Origin: Candidatus Fermentibacteraceae bacterium
GTDB lineage: Bacteria > Fermentibacterota > Fermentibacteria > Fermentibacterales > JCC-6
Assembly (NCBI GenBank): GCA_016744855.1
Contig: JADGDO010000001.1
Span: 186,001-250,000 of the forward strand
DNA: 64,000 nucleotides
Reading direction: 5' to 3'
Shown here: positions 9,021-17,162 of the stretch, one piece after another
Position numbering within the stretch: position 1 is the stretch's first letter
Layout of the letters: each line of letters opens with the position of its first letter
Program-made: the position numbers and the translations under genes
The notes under the pieces: generated by a model
Seen by the model: the letters and a program-made list of their open reading frames with translations, nothing else
Database searches by the model: none
What the model was told of the DNA's origin: nothing

Positions 9021-9875
9021 TCAGCTCTTTATGAGAGACTGGCTGAAGTCGCTTTGAATATACATCGCTACGCTGTCATCGTTGTTGCTTCCGATAATTT
9101 CTGTTGCGTGTGTTTTCACAACTTCAATTGCGTTGGATACAGCAATAGATCGGTCTGCTGCTTGGAACATTCTGAGGTCATTTGCATTGTCACCAAATAC
9201 AACAACTTCTCTTTCTGCAAGACTCATCATCTGTTGCAGTTTTATGATAGCACGATCCTTGGTGGCATTCTTGTCGTGAGCTGTCAACCAGTAGAACCCT
9301 GGTGAATACGTATCTTCCAAGCAGTGAATCTCAAGCAAGTTTGTGAATTTTTCCCGCAATTCAGATTCAAGCTTCGAGAGAACATCGAGCTTGCCAATCA
9401 CATTGAGACAGATCACGGTATCATTGAATGAGCTAGCTATGTCAGTCACAAATCTGAGACGTTTATCGTTGTGGGCACGGCGGTCATTCAGATACCACTT
9501 CACCCCTTCATTGGTTACACTGCTGTAGTAGAGACGATCTTCAGTTCCGGTGAAGGTGGAAACGAATGGAGAACAACCGTGTTTGCTGATGAGGCTGGAG
9601 AGCTTTTCAACAAGATGACGGGCAATGCTGTTTACAAAAAGGTGCTTACCTGTTTCCAGATCAGAGATGATAGCACCATTGAATTCAATAACGGGAAGAG
9701 GAAGTTTCAAACCCTTGAATATGTCCTGGATTGATGCTACACTTCTTGCGCTCGCAGTCGTAACCATTGCCCCATTAGAAATTACCTCTCTCAGAATTTT
9801 AGCAGTTCGTGGAGAGAGCGTACCGTCATCACTAAGCAATGTGCCGTCAAGATCTGTTATGTAGAGCGAATTCAT
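9021..9875 (-). CDS. HAD-superfamily (Cof-type) phosphatase
   Basis: 284 aa with HAD motif I ITDLDGTLL near the N-terminus, motif II in TTASARS, and motif IV in VVFGDNANDLRMF, arranged as in Cof/IIB hydrolases with a large cap domain between. Members dephosphorylate sugar phosphates, FMN or nucleotides, and the substrate here is unknown. The gene lies 8 bases downstream of a small hypothetical gene, at the end of the minus-strand run that begins with the ABC/GTPase cassette. Confidence 0.9.
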   Translation of the reverse strand: MNSLYITDLDGTLLSDDGTLSPRTAKILREVISNGAMVTTASARSVASIQDIFKGLKLPLPVIEFNGAIISDLETGKHLFVNSIARHLVEKLSSLISKHGCSPFVSTFTGTEDRLYYSSVTNEGVKWYLNDRRAHNDKRLRFVTDIASSFNDTVICLNVIGKLDVLSKLESELREKFTNLLEIHCLEDTYSPGFYWLTAHDKNATKDRAIIKLQQMMSLAEREVVVFGDNANDLRMFQAADRSIAVSNAIEVVKTHATEIIGSNNDDSVAMYIQSDFSQSLIKS

Positions 9876-9883
9876 GTAGAGGA

Positions 9884-10114
9884 TCAGCCCTTGTATCCAA
9901 AGAACTTACCTAACTTGTCCATTGCAGGAGTGTACTTCTCTTTTTCCAGATAGAGGATATAGGCTCCATTTTCAGGAGTCATCCAATCTTGATGGTCCGA
10001 TTTGGAGAGATCACTAAAAGAACCGACTTCAGCCTTGAATCCATGCTCTTCCAGGTGTTTCTTTGCTGAATTAAGAAATTCCAATTCATCCATTTGAAGT
10101 ACCGCAATAAGCAT
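9884..10114 (-). CDS. small hypothetical protein (possibly DUF2007-like)
   Basis: 76 aa, alpha/beta in pattern: helix ELEFLNSAKKHLEEHG, strand FKAEVGSF, an acidic loop with the short DWMTPEN stretch, strand GAYILYLEK and a final helix. The order of elements recalls DUF2007 putative signal-transducing proteins, but I cannot confirm it. The ATG has GGAG about ten bases upstream. It lies 8 bases ahead of the HAD gene and about 100 bases after the zinc-ribbon gene, so it may be transcribed with either. The 103-base gap upstream (10115-10217) shows no clear gene or hairpin. Confidence 0.55.
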   Translation of the reverse strand: MLIAVLQMDELEFLNSAKKHLEEHGFKAEVGSFSDLSKSDHQDWMTPENGAYILYLEKEKYTPAMDKLGKFFGYKG

Positions 10115-10217: not shown

Positions 10218-10460
10218 TTAGTAACCTATACCGGCAGGTTTTACATTCGCAGCATCAAAAGCATGACATGGTGTAACTCCATAAACCATGCCGCACCCGG
10301 GACACTTGTCTTCGAATGAGGCCATCTCGAAAGTTTTGCCGCATTCTACACACTCAATATCGAGTGGAACAGGAAGCGGCTGCGAATCGAATCCCATTTG
10401 TCTTACCTTGTCTACTACCTGCCTGTCACTCTCGAAGCTTCCAGCGCATCCGTCATGCAT
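10218..10460 (-). CDS. small zinc-ribbon protein
   Basis: 80 aa. Two CxxC pairs, CVECGK (about residues 37-42) and CPGCGM (about 53-58), form a rubredoxin-like zinc ribbon. Two more Cys lie in MHDGCAG at the N-terminus and TPCHAFDA near the C-terminus and could bind another metal. It starts 12 bases after the stop of the ABC ATPase gene, so it probably belongs to that cassette. A role as a metal-binding partner of the cassette is inference. No named family is recognised with certainty. Confidence 0.65.
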   Translation of the reverse strand: MHDGCAGSFESDRQVVDKVRQMGFDSQPLPVPLDIECVECGKTFEMASFEDKCPGCGMVYGVTPCHAFDAANVKPAGIGY

Positions 10461-10472
10461 GATACAACTCCT

Positions 10473-11483
10473 TTATGTGTTTTGTATTTTCGTGATTATC
10501 TCACCCTGGCGCAACTTTGTACGATAAGCGAGAAGTGTTTTATCCATTTTTTCAAGGGTGGAAAGAATTGTTCTTTCATCATCTGTTGTGTCTATGACTT
10601 TAAAAATACCACCATTTTTAATCACAATTCTTCTGTCACCCATCAGAGCAAGTACGGGGTCGTGAGTTGCCATTAGAACGATCTTGTCTTCAGAGAGAAG
10701 AAGACCCAGAGCTTTTTTTCTGTCGATCCCGGCATTTTCAATTTCATCGATAAGAATGATGGGAGATTTGCTGAGAATGGCAGTGTCAGCTATCATGAGA
10801 GCACGGCTCTGTCCTCCGCTAAGGCTTGTGATTGGAGTCTCTGGGGTGAATGATTCTCCAGCCAGACTGTTTGCCTTATCAATGATTCGTTCGATAACCT
10901 GCTCTCTGTTCTCAACCATTCGGCTTTCTGCGTGAAGTTCAACAAATTCGTATACGGACAAATCCATAACGAAATTCATATTCTGGCTTAACTGGGCCAC
11001 AAGTTTATCTGCCGAAGAAAATCTCCACTTCTTGTCAGGTACATCCTCATTGATCAGTATAGAGCGGCCTGTGGGCGTATCACCCTGTGCAACCCACTCT
11101 ATGTCTCCGAGCAATCTACTTTTGCCAGAGCCTGTGGGACCCACGATGCAGATAATTTCACCCTGTCTTATCACAAGTTCATTGAAGTTCTCAGCTTCGC
11201 CTGATTTGTCTTTGCCCGGAAGTATTGTAACAGTTTTCACTACTTCATCTTCTTTTCCAAGGAAAGCAATCATCTGTTTAATGAATTCACCTATCTGGGC
11301 TGTCAGTACCTCGGGGTCAATTGCCTTGTCTTCAATCTCATCTTCATCAAACCCGGCAAAGTATTCACTGAGAGTATTTTTCTCTTTACCTGCTATTTCC
11401 AATCCATTGTCATTGAAAAATGAAGTCAGAAAAGGAAACTCGGAGATGAGATCCGAAATTTTTCTGTTGCTGATACTGTCCAT
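10473..11483 (-). CDS. ABC-type ATPase without permease, with an N-terminal DUF1858-like domain
   Basis: 336 aa. Residues 1 to about 75 form a helical domain (ISDLISEFPFLTSFFNDNGL and following) that resembles the N-terminus of the solute-binding-like protein two genes upstream. From about residue 100 it is an ABC ATPase: Walker A GPTGSGKS, signature LSGGQSRAL, Walker B IILIDEIENAG and switch His in MATHDPV. Walker B carries Asp-Glu and the adjacent residues are unusual (ENAG). There is no membrane segment, and no permease gene lies nearby. Such a soluble ATPase may drive a conformational change in a cytosolic partner rather than transport. Its ATG shares one base with the stop of the GTPase gene (TAATG), indicating tight coupling. 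Confidence 0.8.
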   Translation of the reverse strand: MDSISNRKISDLISEFPFLTSFFNDNGLEIAGKEKNTLSEYFAGFDEDEIEDKAIDPEVLTAQIGEFIKQMIAFLGKEDEVVKTVTILPGKDKSGEAENFNELVIRQGEIICIVGPTGSGKSRLLGDIEWVAQGDTPTGRSILINEDVPDKKWRFSSADKLVAQLSQNMNFVMDLSVYEFVELHAESRMVENREQVIERIIDKANSLAGESFTPETPITSLSGGQSRALMIADTAILSKSPIILIDEIENAGIDRKKALGLLLSEDKIVLMATHDPVLALMGDRRIVIKNGGIFKVIDTTDDERTILSTLEKMDKTLLAYRTKLRQGEIITKIQNT

Positions 11484-12175
11484 TAATCTTCAACTTTCAT
11501 CTTGCGGACATTACCCATCTGATAGCTTTCTCCAATTCTTGTTTCACCAAGACAGTAGGAACAGAGAGCAGCAGGCATTGGGAAACGTAGCTCCATCCCC
11601 TTTAGTGAGTTGATATTAAGCTCTTCTTCATAGAGTAGTGTACTCAATTCAAAACTACCCTGACCGGTTAACCCGTTGATGTTCATGATAACGGCCGAGG
11701 GATTTACGGTGTTTACCCTGGAAGCAAACACCTCACGCTCAGCTTGAGAGACAATATCTCCCTTTGTGATAACAACAATATCAGCTGTTTTCAGCATTGG
11801 GCCAATTTTTTTCGGGGTATTGATTCCGCTCAGATTATCTATTACACAGACCGCTTTGATTCCCTTGATATAGGGTGAACATCTGTTGCACAATCCAGCA
11901 GACTCACTAATCAGAATATCAAAATCATTTTTTAGTGCCCAGTTTGTAATCTCCTCAACATTGCTCACGAAATAGTGATCGGGACACAGGGCTCCCGACA
12001 ATCCCTTGCGCACAGGAATACCCGCCTTTTCGTAAAGGATATCGTCATCGGTATAGAGGCAGTCAAACTTTGCTACTGCAACCTTTAATCCTCTTTTTTT
12101 TAAAGAATCGATAGTTTTCAGTATAACTGATGTTTTCCCCGAGGAGGGCGGTCCTGAAACTGTGACCAGATTCAT
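11483..12175 (-). CDS. HypB/CobW/UreG-like P-loop GTPase
   Basis: 230 aa. Walker A is GPPSSGKTS at residues 8-16. A Walker B-like region ILISESAGLCNRCSP carries a CxxC. The base-recognition motif is TKGDI, and a second pair, CSYCLGE, lies near the C-terminus. This is the layout of SIMIBI-class metallochaperone GTPases (HypB, UreG, CobW), which load nickel, cobalt or zinc into enzymes. The two CxxC pairs would suit metal handling. No hydrogenase, urease or cobalamin genes are in the window, so the target is unknown. It sits between the solute-binding-like gene (3 bases) and the ABC ATPase gene (1-base overlap). Confidence 0.8.
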   Translation of the reverse strand: MNLVTVSGPPSSGKTSVILKTIDSLKKRGLKVAVAKFDCLYTDDDILYEKAGIPVRKGLSGALCPDHYFVSNVEEITNWALKNDFDILISESAGLCNRCSPYIKGIKAVCVIDNLSGINTPKKIGPMLKTADIVVITKGDIVSQAEREVFASRVNTVNPSAVIMNINGLTGQGSFELSTLLYEEELNINSLKGMELRFPMPAALCSYCLGETRIGESYQMGNVRKMKVED

Positions 12176-12178
12176 GAT

Positions 12179-13402
12179 TTATCCAATCGCTTTATTAAAG
12201 AGTGTTTCACATTTATGTATAAGACCACTGATATCATTACTGTAGATGTAATCCCAGCCAAGCCACATAAATTTGTTCTCTGGTGGAATTCTGTTATCCA
12301 GGTCGGGATGCACGCTTGGGAACAAACCACTGTGTGAAAGAACTTTTCCAACTTCAACAGAAGCAAAGAAATCGACAACCTGTTGGAGCTTCTCAATTTT
12401 TTCTTTCTTTGCGAGCATGAAAATGGGGCTGATAATAGCTCCATCTTCAGGCCAGACAGCAATCATAGGTCCTCCCTCTTTTACAACTTTGGTAAAGAAA
12501 TAGGGCATTATCGTAACAATTGGCTTGTTCGTTTTAAGGCGATTGCTCTTTACCATTTGTGAGGGGTGCATGGACTGTAGCAGGCTTCTGCCCAATTTTG
12601 TTACACCTTCTTCGCCGTACTTCTTGTATATGTTGAGAAGAATTCCATTGAACAGATCAAAATCACCCACTGGAAGAGAAACCCTCTTCTCGAATTCAGG
12701 TTTCATAATGTCTTCCCATGTTCGAGGAACATCTCTTCCGTTCAGTTCGTCTTTGTTAATGAGGAAGACTGCCGGAACAACACCAATCAAAGCGTAGTGT
12801 CCCCTGGGATCCTTGAGATTCAATCCATCAAAAAGGGAATTGAATGTATCGAGAGACGTTGTATCTGCAAAAACACCCTGTTTTTTGAATTTGCCTATCA
12901 TTTCCTCGTCAAAGAACATATCGAAACCCGCTGATATAAACAGATCTGGAAGATCCTCCGGATCGGAGAGTCCTTTTATGTTCTCCTCTACCCATTCCAG
13001 CCCCATGGACGCTGCTTTAAGCTCATGGTTGATCGGAACATCACAGTTGTTCACAAATTCATTGAACTTCTCAAGCAAGGGAATTCTGACTGGGCATGGA
13101 AGAAGTCCTACCACGTTGAGAGCATCAGCTTCCCCGTCTTTGTTCCTTTTGCCTGATTTTGCAAGAGTAACATCTATGGAAGAATCATCGTGTTCTATCG
13201 CTTCTACAATCAGCTTGACGAAAGTGTCCATGTCAATCTGTTTAAGCGTAAGAGCGGTCTCCAGAGTGATTGACCCGGCGAATTTAGCCCTCTGCTCATC
13301 GTCTTTCATTTGTGGAAATCCATTGGAAGCAAATACTGGGATGGTCTCGGGATATTTCTCGGTAATTTCCTGCAGAGTAGTGTTTTTTCCGAAGTATTTC
13401 AT
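12179..13402 (-). CDS. cytosolic solute-binding-like protein with an N-terminal DUF1858-like domain
   Basis: 407 aa. Residues 1-70 (LQEITEKYPETIPVFASNGF) look like a DUF1858/ScdA-N type helical domain. The rest has the fold pattern of type 2 periplasmic binding proteins of the Fe3+/thiamine group, with ISAGFDMFF, VPAVFLINKD, PRTWEDIMKPEFEKRVSLP and a late VWPEDGAIISPI. Unlike transport receptors it has no signal peptide, so it should stay in the cytoplasm. GLLPCPVRIPLLEKF near residue 100 holds a conserved-looking Cys at the start of the binding domain. It is the first gene of the cassette with the GTPase and the ABC ATPase, and the ligand is unknown. AAGGA lies about nine bases before the ATG. 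Confidence 0.75.
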   Translation of the reverse strand: MKYFGKNTTLQEITEKYPETIPVFASNGFPQMKDDEQRAKFAGSITLETALTLKQIDMDTFVKLIVEAIEHDDSSIDVTLAKSGKRNKDGEADALNVVGLLPCPVRIPLLEKFNEFVNNCDVPINHELKAASMGLEWVEENIKGLSDPEDLPDLFISAGFDMFFDEEMIGKFKKQGVFADTTSLDTFNSLFDGLNLKDPRGHYALIGVVPAVFLINKDELNGRDVPRTWEDIMKPEFEKRVSLPVGDFDLFNGILLNIYKKYGEEGVTKLGRSLLQSMHPSQMVKSNRLKTNKPIVTIMPYFFTKVVKEGGPMIAVWPEDGAIISPIFMLAKKEKIEKLQQVVDFFASVEVGKVLSHSGLFPSVHPDLDNRIPPENKFMWLGWDYIYSNDISGLIHKCETLFNKAIG

Positions 13403-13451
13403 ATGTCAATCCTTACTTTAGCTTACTCTCTAAATTCTTGAGTACATTGGT

Positions 13452-13481
13452 ATGATATGAAATTCGTGTGCAATTGTGCAA
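13452..13481 (-). promoter_or_regulatory. possible sigma-70-type promoter of the solute-binding/GTPase/ABC cassette
   Basis: On the minus strand TTGCAC (13476-13481) and TATCAT (13452-13457) are 18 bases apart, about 50 bases before the start codon at 13402. This 111-base gap is one of the few real intergenic spaces in the region. The match is fair but not compelling. Confidence 0.35.
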
Positions 13482-13513
13482 ATAATAACAATCGGGTTAA
13501 ATGCCGTTACCGA

Positions 13514-16285
13514 TTACTTGACTTCAGGAATTGATTCACCCAGAACAGAACTCAATTTGTCCGACAAGTCTTGAAGGGAAAATGGCTTAGAGATGAAGGG
13601 AACTCGATTATCGGATCCTGTTCTATCCTTAATTTTATCTCCGGAGTAACCGGACATGTATACAACCTTTAAGTCAGGAATTAGTTTTAGAGCTTCCATG
13701 TGCAGTTTTTCTAGACTGATACCCGGCATGATTACATCGGTAAGCATCAGATCTATGCTGTCTCTGTTTGCTTCAATCACTCCAAGAGCTTCCTGGCCGG
13801 ATGATGCATTAAAAACTGTGTATCCGAATCGCTTGAGAGCGATAACAGAGATTTCTCTTACCTCATCGCTGTCTTCAACAACCAGAATGGTTTGATTGGA
13901 AGAAGTCTTCTCTGCAGAATGTGATTTTTTCGTTTCGATTATTGTCTTGTCAGATATCGGAAGAAGAATGGTGAACGAGGAGCCCTCTCCCGGGGCGCTT
14001 TCAACGCTGATACTGCCTCCATGCTGCTGAATTATACCGTAAACAGTTGCCAGGCCGAGACCGGTCCCAAGGTCTCCCTTTGTAGAGAAGAAAGGCTCGT
14101 AAATTTTGTTGATGGTGTCCTCGTCCATTCCGGTTCCGTCATCGGAAACCTGAAGAACAGCACATTTCTTATTGAGTACATTGCTCGCTGATAATGATGT
14201 ATGAATCAACATATTACCACGACCGGGCATCGCATCCTGTGCATTCACAGCCAGATTTGTCAAAACCTGCTCGAGCTGACTGGGATCTCCGTATATAGGA
14301 AGAGGTGATTCTAAAAGATCAAAAGTTATGGAAATGTCTTCCCTGATTGTTCTGCGCAGCAGATTCATGTAGTCGGATACAACAAGGTTCAAATCAATTA
14401 CTTCGAGTTTGAGTACCTGTTTACGCCCGAAAGCAAGAAGCCGGTTCACCAGCCCCTGTGCACTCTTCCCTGCCCTCAGTATTTCGCTGTATGGTTGAGG
14501 ATTGGTATCCTCATTCAAATCAGAAAGCAGCATCTCAGCGTATCCTATTATGGGAGTCAATAGATTATTGAGATCGTGTGCTACACCACCAGCCAGCTGG
14601 CCAATTGACTTAAGTTTCTGTGCCTTGTCGACCTGGATTTGTAATCTCTTCTGTTCAATTTCTGCGTGTTTCCGGGGAGAAATATCCAGATGTATCCCGG
14701 TCATTCTGAGTGGATTCCCTGATTCATCTCTCTCCAGAATGGTGCCTTTGTCTACCACCCATATCCAGTTACCATCAGTGTGTTTTAACCTGAAGGTAGC
14801 CTCATAGGATTCTGTGACACCATCAAAATGCTCCTGCAGCTGCAGGTATGTTTCGTCGATGTCCTCGGGATGAATAAGGTCTTTCCAAAACTCCTCTGTA
14901 ACCGGTGATATCTCAGAAAGGGAATAACCTATAATTTTAGCCCAGCGATCATTTACAATAATCCTTCCGGTAACCAGGTTCCAATCCCAGGTTGCAGCGC
15001 CGATTCCTCTGAGAGCCAGATCCATACTTTCTTCACTTTGCCTCAAATCGTTCATTGTCGATTTCAACCGGTGAGTTAGCCGACTGAAATCTGCAGACAA
15101 CTCATTAACTTCTTCCATCCAGTGTGAAGCGAAATCCTTTTCTTCACCTTTTAGCAATTGTCTGACTGTGACCCTGAGATCCTGCAGAGGTTTTGAGATA
15201 AGTTTCGCAACAAACATTCCAGTTAGCAAGGCAACAAGAAGAGAAACAGCAAGGAGAAGAAGAGTAATTCTTCTGTTCTTCTCAAGAAAATTCAGAAAAT
15301 CAGAATCTTGAATGACAGTTACGATAAAGTAGGTTTTGCCTATTGAATCTTGAAAAGGAACCACCTGTACGAAAGAATTCAGACCCGGTTCTTCAAGAGC
15401 GAACTCAAGTGTTGAATCAATTCCTGAAAAACCTCCGTACAAGCTGTCTATATGAAGAGCTGTTTCGGAAACAACCAGATTTTCGTGCTCTCTTGCAGGA
15501 AAAAGAGAACTACCATGACTGCTATCCTCATTTATAGAGGAGGTTAGAATATTGCTTTCGGGGTCAGTTATAAAAATAACCCCTTCCTCTCCAATATTAA
15601 TTGTTTCAAGAAAATTACCCATGTATGAGAGAAATACATCGCAGGAAACTACTCCTGCTATATCTCCGGAGTCATCAAAAACAACAACGCTCGTTGAAAT
15701 AGAAACATTGTCTCCTGTAAAAACCTGAAAAGGATCTGTTCTTGCTGGAGAACCATTAGCCAGGAGGGCCATCGTGAACCAAGAACGGCTTCTAGCGTCA
15801 AAATTCGGGATTTCGGCTAGCAGCTCAACTCTGTTTCCAAGGCTGTCGACACGATGTTTGTAGAATGAACCTGCTGAGTAGTTTTCAGTTTCGATTGTAT
15901 AGAATTCTCCGGATGTCTCCCGCCCGGCGTTTATAAGCCCTCCGTCCATGTTTCCGAAATAGATACTGCTTATCTGAGGGAAAGCATGAATCAGTTCAAG
16001 AAACACCAGCTGCATTTCATGGGGATTTTTCAGATTAAGTAATCCTCCTGCAGCGAGTCGACTGGTTAAATTACAGATGATTTGGGGTGCTTCAAGGAAG
16101 CTGCTGGTACGAGCCTGAACCCTGAAAGCAATTTCTTCTCTGAATTTTAGTGATGCACTGGAAACTGAATTTCTACCATTCTCCAGTGAGAAGTACCCCA
16201 CAAGAAAAACAGATACCAGAATTAGAAGAATGATCGGCACAACAATCATTTTTCTTAACGAAATACGTTTCAGTTTAAAGAGCAC
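13514..16285 (-). CDS. hybrid sensor histidine kinase (extracytoplasmic sensor-HAMP-PAS-HK-receiver)
   Basis: 923 aa from a GTG at 16283-16285. Order of parts: membrane helix at about 14-33; a large extracytoplasmic sensor of dCACHE type to about 335; a second helix at about 340-363; HAMP; a PAS domain at about 420-540 (WDWNLVTGRI to GIHLDISPRK); a HisKA domain with His about 570 in GGVAHDLNNLL; an HATPase_c with NLAVNAQDAM, GTGMD and GTGLGLATVYG; and a C-terminal receiver with phospho-Asp in LTDVIMPG. All catalytic motifs are present. No output regulator lies next to it, so its partner is elsewhere. The chosen start follows an almost perfect Shine-Dalgarno; an ATG-like start at 16336 would overlap the methyltransferase gene. 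Confidence 0.92.
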   Translation of the reverse strand: MLFKLKRISLRKMIVVPIILLILVSVFLVGYFSLENGRNSVSSASLKFREEIAFRVQARTSSFLEAPQIICNLTSRLAAGGLLNLKNPHEMQLVFLELIHAFPQISSIYFGNMDGGLINAGRETSGEFYTIETENYSAGSFYKHRVDSLGNRVELLAEIPNFDARSRSWFTMALLANGSPARTDPFQVFTGDNVSISTSVVVFDDSGDIAGVVSCDVFLSYMGNFLETINIGEEGVIFITDPESNILTSSINEDSSHGSSLFPAREHENLVVSETALHIDSLYGGFSGIDSTLEFALEEPGLNSFVQVVPFQDSIGKTYFIVTVIQDSDFLNFLEKNRRITLLLLAVSLLVALLTGMFVAKLISKPLQDLRVTVRQLLKGEEKDFASHWMEEVNELSADFSRLTHRLKSTMNDLRQSEESMDLALRGIGAATWDWNLVTGRIIVNDRWAKIIGYSLSEISPVTEEFWKDLIHPEDIDETYLQLQEHFDGVTESYEATFRLKHTDGNWIWVVDKGTILERDESGNPLRMTGIHLDISPRKHAEIEQKRLQIQVDKAQKLKSIGQLAGGVAHDLNNLLTPIIGYAEMLLSDLNEDTNPQPYSEILRAGKSAQGLVNRLLAFGRKQVLKLEVIDLNLVVSDYMNLLRRTIREDISITFDLLESPLPIYGDPSQLEQVLTNLAVNAQDAMPGRGNMLIHTSLSASNVLNKKCAVLQVSDDGTGMDEDTINKIYEPFFSTKGDLGTGLGLATVYGIIQQHGGSISVESAPGEGSSFTILLPISDKTIIETKKSHSAEKTSSNQTILVVEDSDEVREISVIALKRFGYTVFNASSGQEALGVIEANRDSIDLMLTDVIMPGISLEKLHMEALKLIPDLKVVYMSGYSGDKIKDRTGSDNRVPFISKPFSLQDLSDKLSSVLGESIPEVK

Positions 16286-16295
16286 ATCACCTCCT
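16286..16295 (-). promoter_or_regulatory. strong Shine-Dalgarno setting the histidine-kinase start
   Basis: The minus strand reads AGGAGGTGAT directly before the GTG at 16285. The upstream methyltransferase stop (TGA, 16287-16289) lies inside it, so ribosomes finishing that gene can restart here. Confidence 0.6.
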
Positions 16296-17060
16296 GCTCG
16301 GGCTACCAATCTTAGAAATTTCGTTTTTCTTTGCAATCATGAAATAACCCAAAGGGAATCTAGCTGATGTCGTCTTCGAGACTTTTCTGCCGAATTTTGT
16401 TTGAATGAAGAGAGATGTTAACCATTGGGCAGAAATTGCAAGACATTTGCCGATCAGAGGTATTCTCAGAATGCTCTTGGAGTAGATATCCGTCAAAATT
16501 TCCGGGACCCCCCCGGTCGGACTAAGGCTGATAACATCAAACCCTGAGGATTCCGCAAGGTTTCGCAGTGCAAACTCTGTATACCTGTAAAAATCATGGG
16601 GTTCCTCGTGCAACCAGTAGAAAAAGGGAACATTCAGAAAAAGAACTCCACCGGAAGAGAGAACTCTAGATATCTCGCTCATTAGCAATTCAGGCTGTGG
16701 AATGTGCTCCAGTACATCAGAAAGAATAACTGTATTGTATTCAGCTTCTTTGAACGGTAGTGGTTTTGTGAGATCACACTCGAAATCAAGGTGTTCATTT
16801 TTGTGCAGAGTGCTTCCCCAGTCAACACATGTATTTTCAGATACATACTCTTTGTAGGCTGCGTATAGAGGAACCTTTCCACACCCCAAGTCCAAGAGAC
16901 GTCCCACCGCATAGGTTTTGAGATTCTTGTCGTAATACCCGGCTGTAATGTCAGTTACCAGTCTTGACCCGGGAGAAACCTCAGTACAGTCTCTTGAAGC
17001 AGCAAGCGCGCTTCTTCTGTAGATGTATTTACTCGGGGCCCAGCTTTCAATTGACAGCAT
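16287..17060 (-). CDS. class I SAM-dependent methyltransferase
   Basis: 257 aa from the ATG at 17058-17060; a TTG at 17111 would add 17 residues. Motif I is LLDLGCGKVPL, and a motif IV-like region is VILSDVLEHIPQPELL, followed by ISRVLSSGGVLFLNVPF. This is the Methyltransf_11-type fold, common in polysaccharide and lipid decoration clusters. The substrate is unknown. A carbohydrate or lipid acceptor is suggested only by the neighbouring glycosyltransferase and LPS genes. Confidence 0.82.
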   Translation of the reverse strand: MLSIESWAPSKYIYRRSALAASRDCTEVSPGSRLVTDITAGYYDKNLKTYAVGRLLDLGCGKVPLYAAYKEYVSENTCVDWGSTLHKNEHLDFECDLTKPLPFKEAEYNTVILSDVLEHIPQPELLMSEISRVLSSGGVLFLNVPFFYWLHEEPHDFYRYTEFALRNLAESSGFDVISLSPTGGVPEILTDIYSKSILRIPLIGKCLAISAQWLTSLFIQTKFGRKVSKTTSARFPLGYFMIAKKNEISKIGSPSRR

Positions 17061-17162
17061 TATTTTATCAAACTTTCTTTGGGGTGGTCGCGAACACCAT
17101 AGGCTTCTCAAAACATATATGTGACTTTTACCTCTGGAGCAAGTACGTTAGATCCTGAAAGC

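Follow-up and report, generated by a model that had tools for sequence, protein, structure and literature searches.

The window, i.e., the whole 64,000-nucleotide stretch of DNA analyzed here, carries a cassette of four co-oriented minus-strand open reading frames within 10218-13402, all of them as first described. The cassette and the features next to it are, in the direction of transcription:

13440..13492, minus strand, promoter-like block 5' of the binding-protein gene (TTGCAC, 18 bases, TATCAT), conserved in the genus
12179..13402, minus strand, binding protein of 407 aa with a DUF1858 domain (approximately residues 1-70) and an SBP_bac_6 domain (approximately 94-407)
11483..12175, minus strand, HypB-like SIMIBI GTPase of 230 aa with C64-P-D-H67, C96-N-R-C99, and C205-S-Y-C208
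10473..11483, minus strand, soluble ABC ATPase of 336 aa with a DUF1858-like domain at its N-terminus
10218..10460, minus strand, zinc-ribbon protein of 80 aa, partly HypA-like
9884..10114, minus strand, 76-aa protein 3' of the zinc ribbon, kept across the genus
9021..9875, minus strand, HAD-family hydrolase (Hydrolase_3 in Pfam), which closes the genus-conserved gene run

Read 5' to 3', the first two genes of the cassette are 3 bases apart, the second and third overlap by one base (TAATG), and the third and fourth are separated by 12 bases. These are the four genes and the spacing that the preliminary description had reported; its statement that the ABC ATPase has no membrane partner also agrees with the four-gene cassette of the window, where no permease gene occurs. 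The HAD-family hydrolase is possibly a mere neighbor of the cassette. In sister genomes a small ferredoxin gene, missing from the window, stands between the zinc-ribbon gene and the 76-aa gene. Upstream, at 13514-17111 of the window, histidine kinase and methyltransferase genes occur in swapped order relative to two sister genomes (L018 and L019).

Across 84,980 species genomes, at least 562 stretches were confirmed to encode the GTPase, and anaerobes carrying the cassette number in the hundreds. In the best 80 of these at least 562 loci, which belong to Fermentibacterota, Cloacimonadota, Neomarinimicrobiota, Spirochaetota, Bacillota (Tissierellia and Halanaerobium included), Bacteroidota, Acidobacteria, and Aminicenantes, GTPase identity was 76-97%, with values of 95-97% inside the window's genus and approximately 77% between phyla. 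Within the window's own small phylum, a phylum-wide search found the cassette in the window's genus only; outside the genus, GTPase matches were present in 7 genomes of the relatives sample. Gene order was examined across 88 loci, which are best-scoring relatives and related to one another: the binding protein was at -1 in 83 and the ATPase at +1 in 85, with the zinc ribbon present in 62. Because both order and sequence are conserved between phyla, the cassette stands far above chance. A permease conserved beside the trio had been named beforehand as the observation that would speak against a permease-less system, and none was found beside the orthologous cassette among the 88 loci. In sister genomes L015, L017, L018, and L019 the operon is followed by a UPF0014 (FetB-like) permease that comes with an ATPase of its own; this permease occurs in only some genus members and is absent downstream of 9021-9875 in the window.

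The binding protein matches SBP_bac_6 (2.3e-80) and DUF1858 (3.7e-13) in Pfam. It begins with the DUF1858 domain and therefore has no signal peptide, as had been claimed from the outset, and a signal peptide is likewise absent from the aligned homologues. The structural model (pLDDT 89) is nearest in fold to ferric-binding proteins, with Z of 22-24 over approximately 288 residues at approximately 11-13% identity. The fold is held in common with the FbpA/FutA-type ferric-binding proteins (SBP_bac_6 and relatives), whereas the cassette protein differs from these in being cytosolic, fused to DUF1858, without a permease, and without the Tyr pair, the Tyr-Tyr of C. jejuni FbpA aligning with F302-F303. 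Four residues of the binding protein are invariant (C103, H279, M283, and W383); the first of these, an invariant Cys where the SBP domain starts, also sets the protein apart from FbpA/FutA and probably lies close to the position of the FbpA His ligand.

The GTPase matches the cobW/HypB/UreG family (Pfam, 5e-13), contains the G1, G3, and G4 motifs, and scores below the cut-off of the HypB model TIGR00073 (48.5 vs. 121.2 bits). RecA matches to it were dismissed as repeat-inflated Walker A matches. Three motifs are invariant in the family, C64-P-D-H67, C96-x-R-C99, and C205-x-x-C208; the last two are the CxxC pairs pointed out in the preliminary description (C96/C99 and C205/C208), which left the equally invariant C64-P-D-H67 unmentioned. 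When the family profile was compared with HypB structures (2hf8, E 6.8e-12; 2wsm, E 4.9e-11), the Cys-His of HypB aligned with C64PDH67 and its second metal-site Cys with the C96/C99 region. We take this Cys-His and the second Cys of the G domain to be the metal ligands of HypB, and the alignment indicates that the cassette GTPase retains and extends this Cys-His/Cys metal site. The similarity to HypB thus comprises the SIMIBI GTPase fold, metal ligands at the aligned Cys-His and Cys positions, and a zinc-ribbon partner; unlike HypB, the cassette GTPase has an additional C-terminal CxxC and expanded CPDH and CNRC motifs, and its partners are an ABC ATPase and a binding protein.

The ABC ATPase (ABC_tran, 2.6e-15) has a complete and invariant set of motifs, namely Walker A, the Q residues, LSGGQ, Walker B, and the H-loop histidine. 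Comparison by hhalign relates its DUF1858-like domain to the one in the binding protein (probability 89.6, E 1.9e-6), and this relationship suggests that the two domains may serve a common docking function. The 80-aa protein gave only zinc-ribbon-like Pfam matches, with HypA at 18.5 bits, under the cut-off of 28.9; H2, G4, C5, and the CxxC...CxxC pattern are invariant and PCHAFD is conserved. At the N-terminus, where HypA has its MHE motif, the protein starts with H-[DE]-G-C, the His being preceded by further residues in some homologues.

The commonest neighbor family of the cassette was hybrid cluster protein (Hcp), an enzyme that removes nitric oxide, found at 22 of the 88 loci and usually 2-4 genes downstream, while three quarters of the loci had no Hcp nearby. 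Other recurrent neighbors were Rrf2 regulators (19 loci), Crp-family (HcpR-like) regulators (14), FrdX-type ferredoxin (12), and flavodiiron protein (8). Pfam and NCBIfam models confirmed the identity of representative neighbors. A small cupin gene was present at 12 of the 88 loci, Cloacimonadota among them, often directly 5' of the binding-protein gene (e.g., L061:4430-4807). Co-occurrence extends beyond gene neighborhoods. In Clostridia, Hcp was present in all 12 cassette genomes vs. 102 of 216 genomes overall, with a hypergeometric probability of 9e-5, or 0.002 with the exclusion of four genomes in which the cassette had already been known, values that overstate independence because the loci are related to each other. 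Hcp was also present in 43 of 49 other cassette genomes (those of the fetched loci) and in 6 of the 7 cassette genomes of the relatives sample beyond the genus, the seventh being G348, which is 99% complete and has no Hcp match. In the window genome an rrf2-hcp pair lies on a different contig from the cassette.

An HcpR2 operator, GTAACnnnnGTTAC, was published in 2005 (PMC1274295), and perfect copies of it were found 5' of 23 of 96 cassettes at loci of Bacillota, Bacteroidota, Acidobacteria, and Aminicenantes. Among 837 other genes of the same loci it occurred 5' of Hcp genes in 9 cases, as sites common with the cassette promoter in 12, and elsewhere in 3. With Hcp genes and common promoters excluded, 3 of approximately 800 other genes thus have a copy (Fisher p 7e-21, again overstating independence, as these are related loci). 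An Rrf2-type operator, GGTATTnnnGTACC, precedes the cassette in L066, L068, and L070 (Cloacimonadota and Spirochaetota), and the rrf2-hcp promoters in the window's genus contain TATAGTGGCATTAGAGTACCACTATA or near variants, which are related to GGTATTnnnGTACC. The sister genome G004 has a match to the Rrf2 operator 5' of its cassette (24.1 bits); in the sequence upstream of the window cassette no perfect HcpR2 site was found and the top Rrf2-operator score was 0.5 bits. In C. difficile, resistance to nitric oxide (NO) requires Hcp and FrdX, under the control of HcpR (PMC12915319). The cassettes of Clostridia, Bacteroidota, and others have the operator GTAACnnnnGTTAC in common with this regulon, and hcp and ferredoxin genes adjoin cassettes; the regulon members listed in the papers examined are hcp, frdX, and others, with the cassette not among them, and the window's genus differs from it in having Rrf2 beside hcp instead. 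From these sites we infer that the cassette is under NO-linked regulation. Operon context, operators, and co-occurrence link the cassette to NO defense in other phyla. Neither the cassette nor its link to Hcp was found described in the searchable text of the open-access literature, and a term search of a 2026 survey of Hcp gene neighbors (PMC13056359) turned up no such cassette.

Taken together, these results favor metal-center loading or repair as the best reading of the cassette anatomy, at chances that we put near even. We give similarly balanced credence to the fuller statement that the cassette is a soluble metal-center loading or repair machine that is switched on in the NO defense of many anaerobes, beside or together with Hcp. 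The earlier proposal, in which metal or cofactor handling is the task of a cytosolic machine driven by ATP and GTP, gains from the HypB metal-site alignment, the ferric-binding fold, the intact motifs, and the lack of a permease; its emphasis on nickel, cobalt, or zinc is not supported. Under metal-center loading or repair, the binding protein would capture a cytosolic metal ion or small metal complex, partly via the invariant C103. The ATPase would dock on it through the related DUF1858-like domain and spend ATP on opening or releasing it, and the GTPase, helped by the zinc-ribbon protein, would accept the metal at its Cys/His residues and pass this metal on upon GTP hydrolysis. The client is likely to be iron or an NO-damaged iron-sulfur center, with Hcp as the leading candidate for a single client, though not the sole one. 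A more specific version is tentative and, in our estimate, has the lesser part of the probability: that the cassette is a new type of metallocofactor machine for rebuilding NO-damaged iron-sulfur centers, Hcp included. In this version the HypB-like GTPase and the HypA-like zinc ribbon would be supplied by the Cys-bearing binding protein of the cytosol and its permease-less ABC ATPase, and paralogous machines would act in metal-chelate uptake and on nitrogenase-like enzymes.

An ABC ATPase acting on metal centers without a permease is familiar from SufBCD and other iron-sulfur assembly systems with soluble ABC ATPases. The cassette has such a soluble, permease-less ATPase in common with SufBCD, but differs in having a GTPase and a solute-binding protein, and neither SufB nor SufD was seen among the recurrent neighbors of the 88 loci. 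Importantly, the cassette is a concrete and testable candidate for iron-sulfur repair after NO in anaerobes and for the making of the hybrid cluster of Hcp; if true, this would mean that binding proteins and ABC ATPases have been recruited from transport to cytosolic metal handling. A replacement of the iron-sulfur repair protein RIC/ScdA by the cassette was considered and rejected, since ScdA_N was found in 8 of 37 cassette genomes vs. 5 of 43 controls, with no inverse relation.

The same adjacency, common operators, and co-occurrence would also be expected of a dedicated Hcp maturation factor that builds or inserts the hybrid iron-sulfur-oxygen cluster. We regard this as improbable, at something like one chance among six, for the cassette is absent from most Hcp-bearing genomes, is present without an Hcp match in the nearly complete G348, and is not matched by an Hcp lineage of its own: the Hcp tree mixes proteins from cassette and non-cassette genomes. 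An initial tree, in which non-cassette Hcps were few, had shown a split suggestive of specificity for one Hcp clade; the idea was given up when a larger sample proved mixed. Since there is no separate Hcp clade and many Hcp genomes have no cassette, the distribution indicates that the cassette has an accessory role and is not an obligatory factor in Hcp maturation.

Slightly less probable again is a system for handling or sensing a small molecule in the NO response, in which the ligand of the binding protein would be an organic molecule or an anion in place of a metal, with regulatory roles for the ATPase and GTPase. The SBP fold family also holds binders of pyridoxal phosphate, phosphosugar, metal-citrate, and polyamine, and the absence of the FbpA Tyr pair is in keeping with such a ligand, but this reading has to contend with a HypB-like metal site and a zinc ribbon within one cassette as well as with the Cys that is invariant where the SBP domain begins.

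Delivery of nickel to a nickel enzyme in the manner of HypA/HypB, to which the relationship of the GTPase to HypB and the HypA-like zinc ribbon with its H-[DE]-G-C start would both lend themselves, is very unlikely. Many cassette genomes have no NiFe hydrogenase match: beyond the genus, NiFe hydrogenase was found in only 4 of 33 cassette genomes and Ni-CODH in 14 of 33 (one of them a fragment), in a search that used PF00374 at E 1e-20, so that divergent or low-scoring hydrogenase groups could be missed, and that covered Ni-CODH as the only other nickel enzyme. Neither enzyme was matched in the window genome or in three genus members, and a His-rich HypB separate from the cassette GTPase is encoded in the window genome beside a HypE-like gene. 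NiFe hydrogenase and Ni-CODH are consequently disfavored as clients, and with them the earlier emphasis on nickel, cobalt, and zinc; the link to Hcp and the NO regulon was not visible to the preliminary description. The His-rich HypB lies 3' of the HypE-like gene in L001 (G000:C63) at 976-2043, yet that genome has no PF00374 match at E 1e-20.

Least probable of all, by a small step, is an ABC importer of the usual kind, with a permease encoded at another place and a binding protein that only seems cytosolic, for although the cassette parts resemble importer components and distant paralogues adjoin FecBCD-type importers, the aligned binding-protein homologues have no signal peptide, the orthologous cassette has no conserved adjoining permease, and the FecBCD importers near the paralogues carry their own ATPases where these were seen.

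The distant paralogues themselves occur in several contexts. GTPase-ATPase pairs in L158, L161, and L162 adjoin FecBCD-type importers and a SAM methyltransferase, and those in L045 and L159 adjoin a protein that, judged by eye, resembles DUF364. A general metal-cofactor role of the GTPase-ATPase core would fit the contexts of the paralogues. In Tissierella praeacuta (L163:9112-14580), a paralogue consisting of GTPase, ATPase, and binding protein is followed by a NifH-like gene and two nitrogenase-component-1-like genes.
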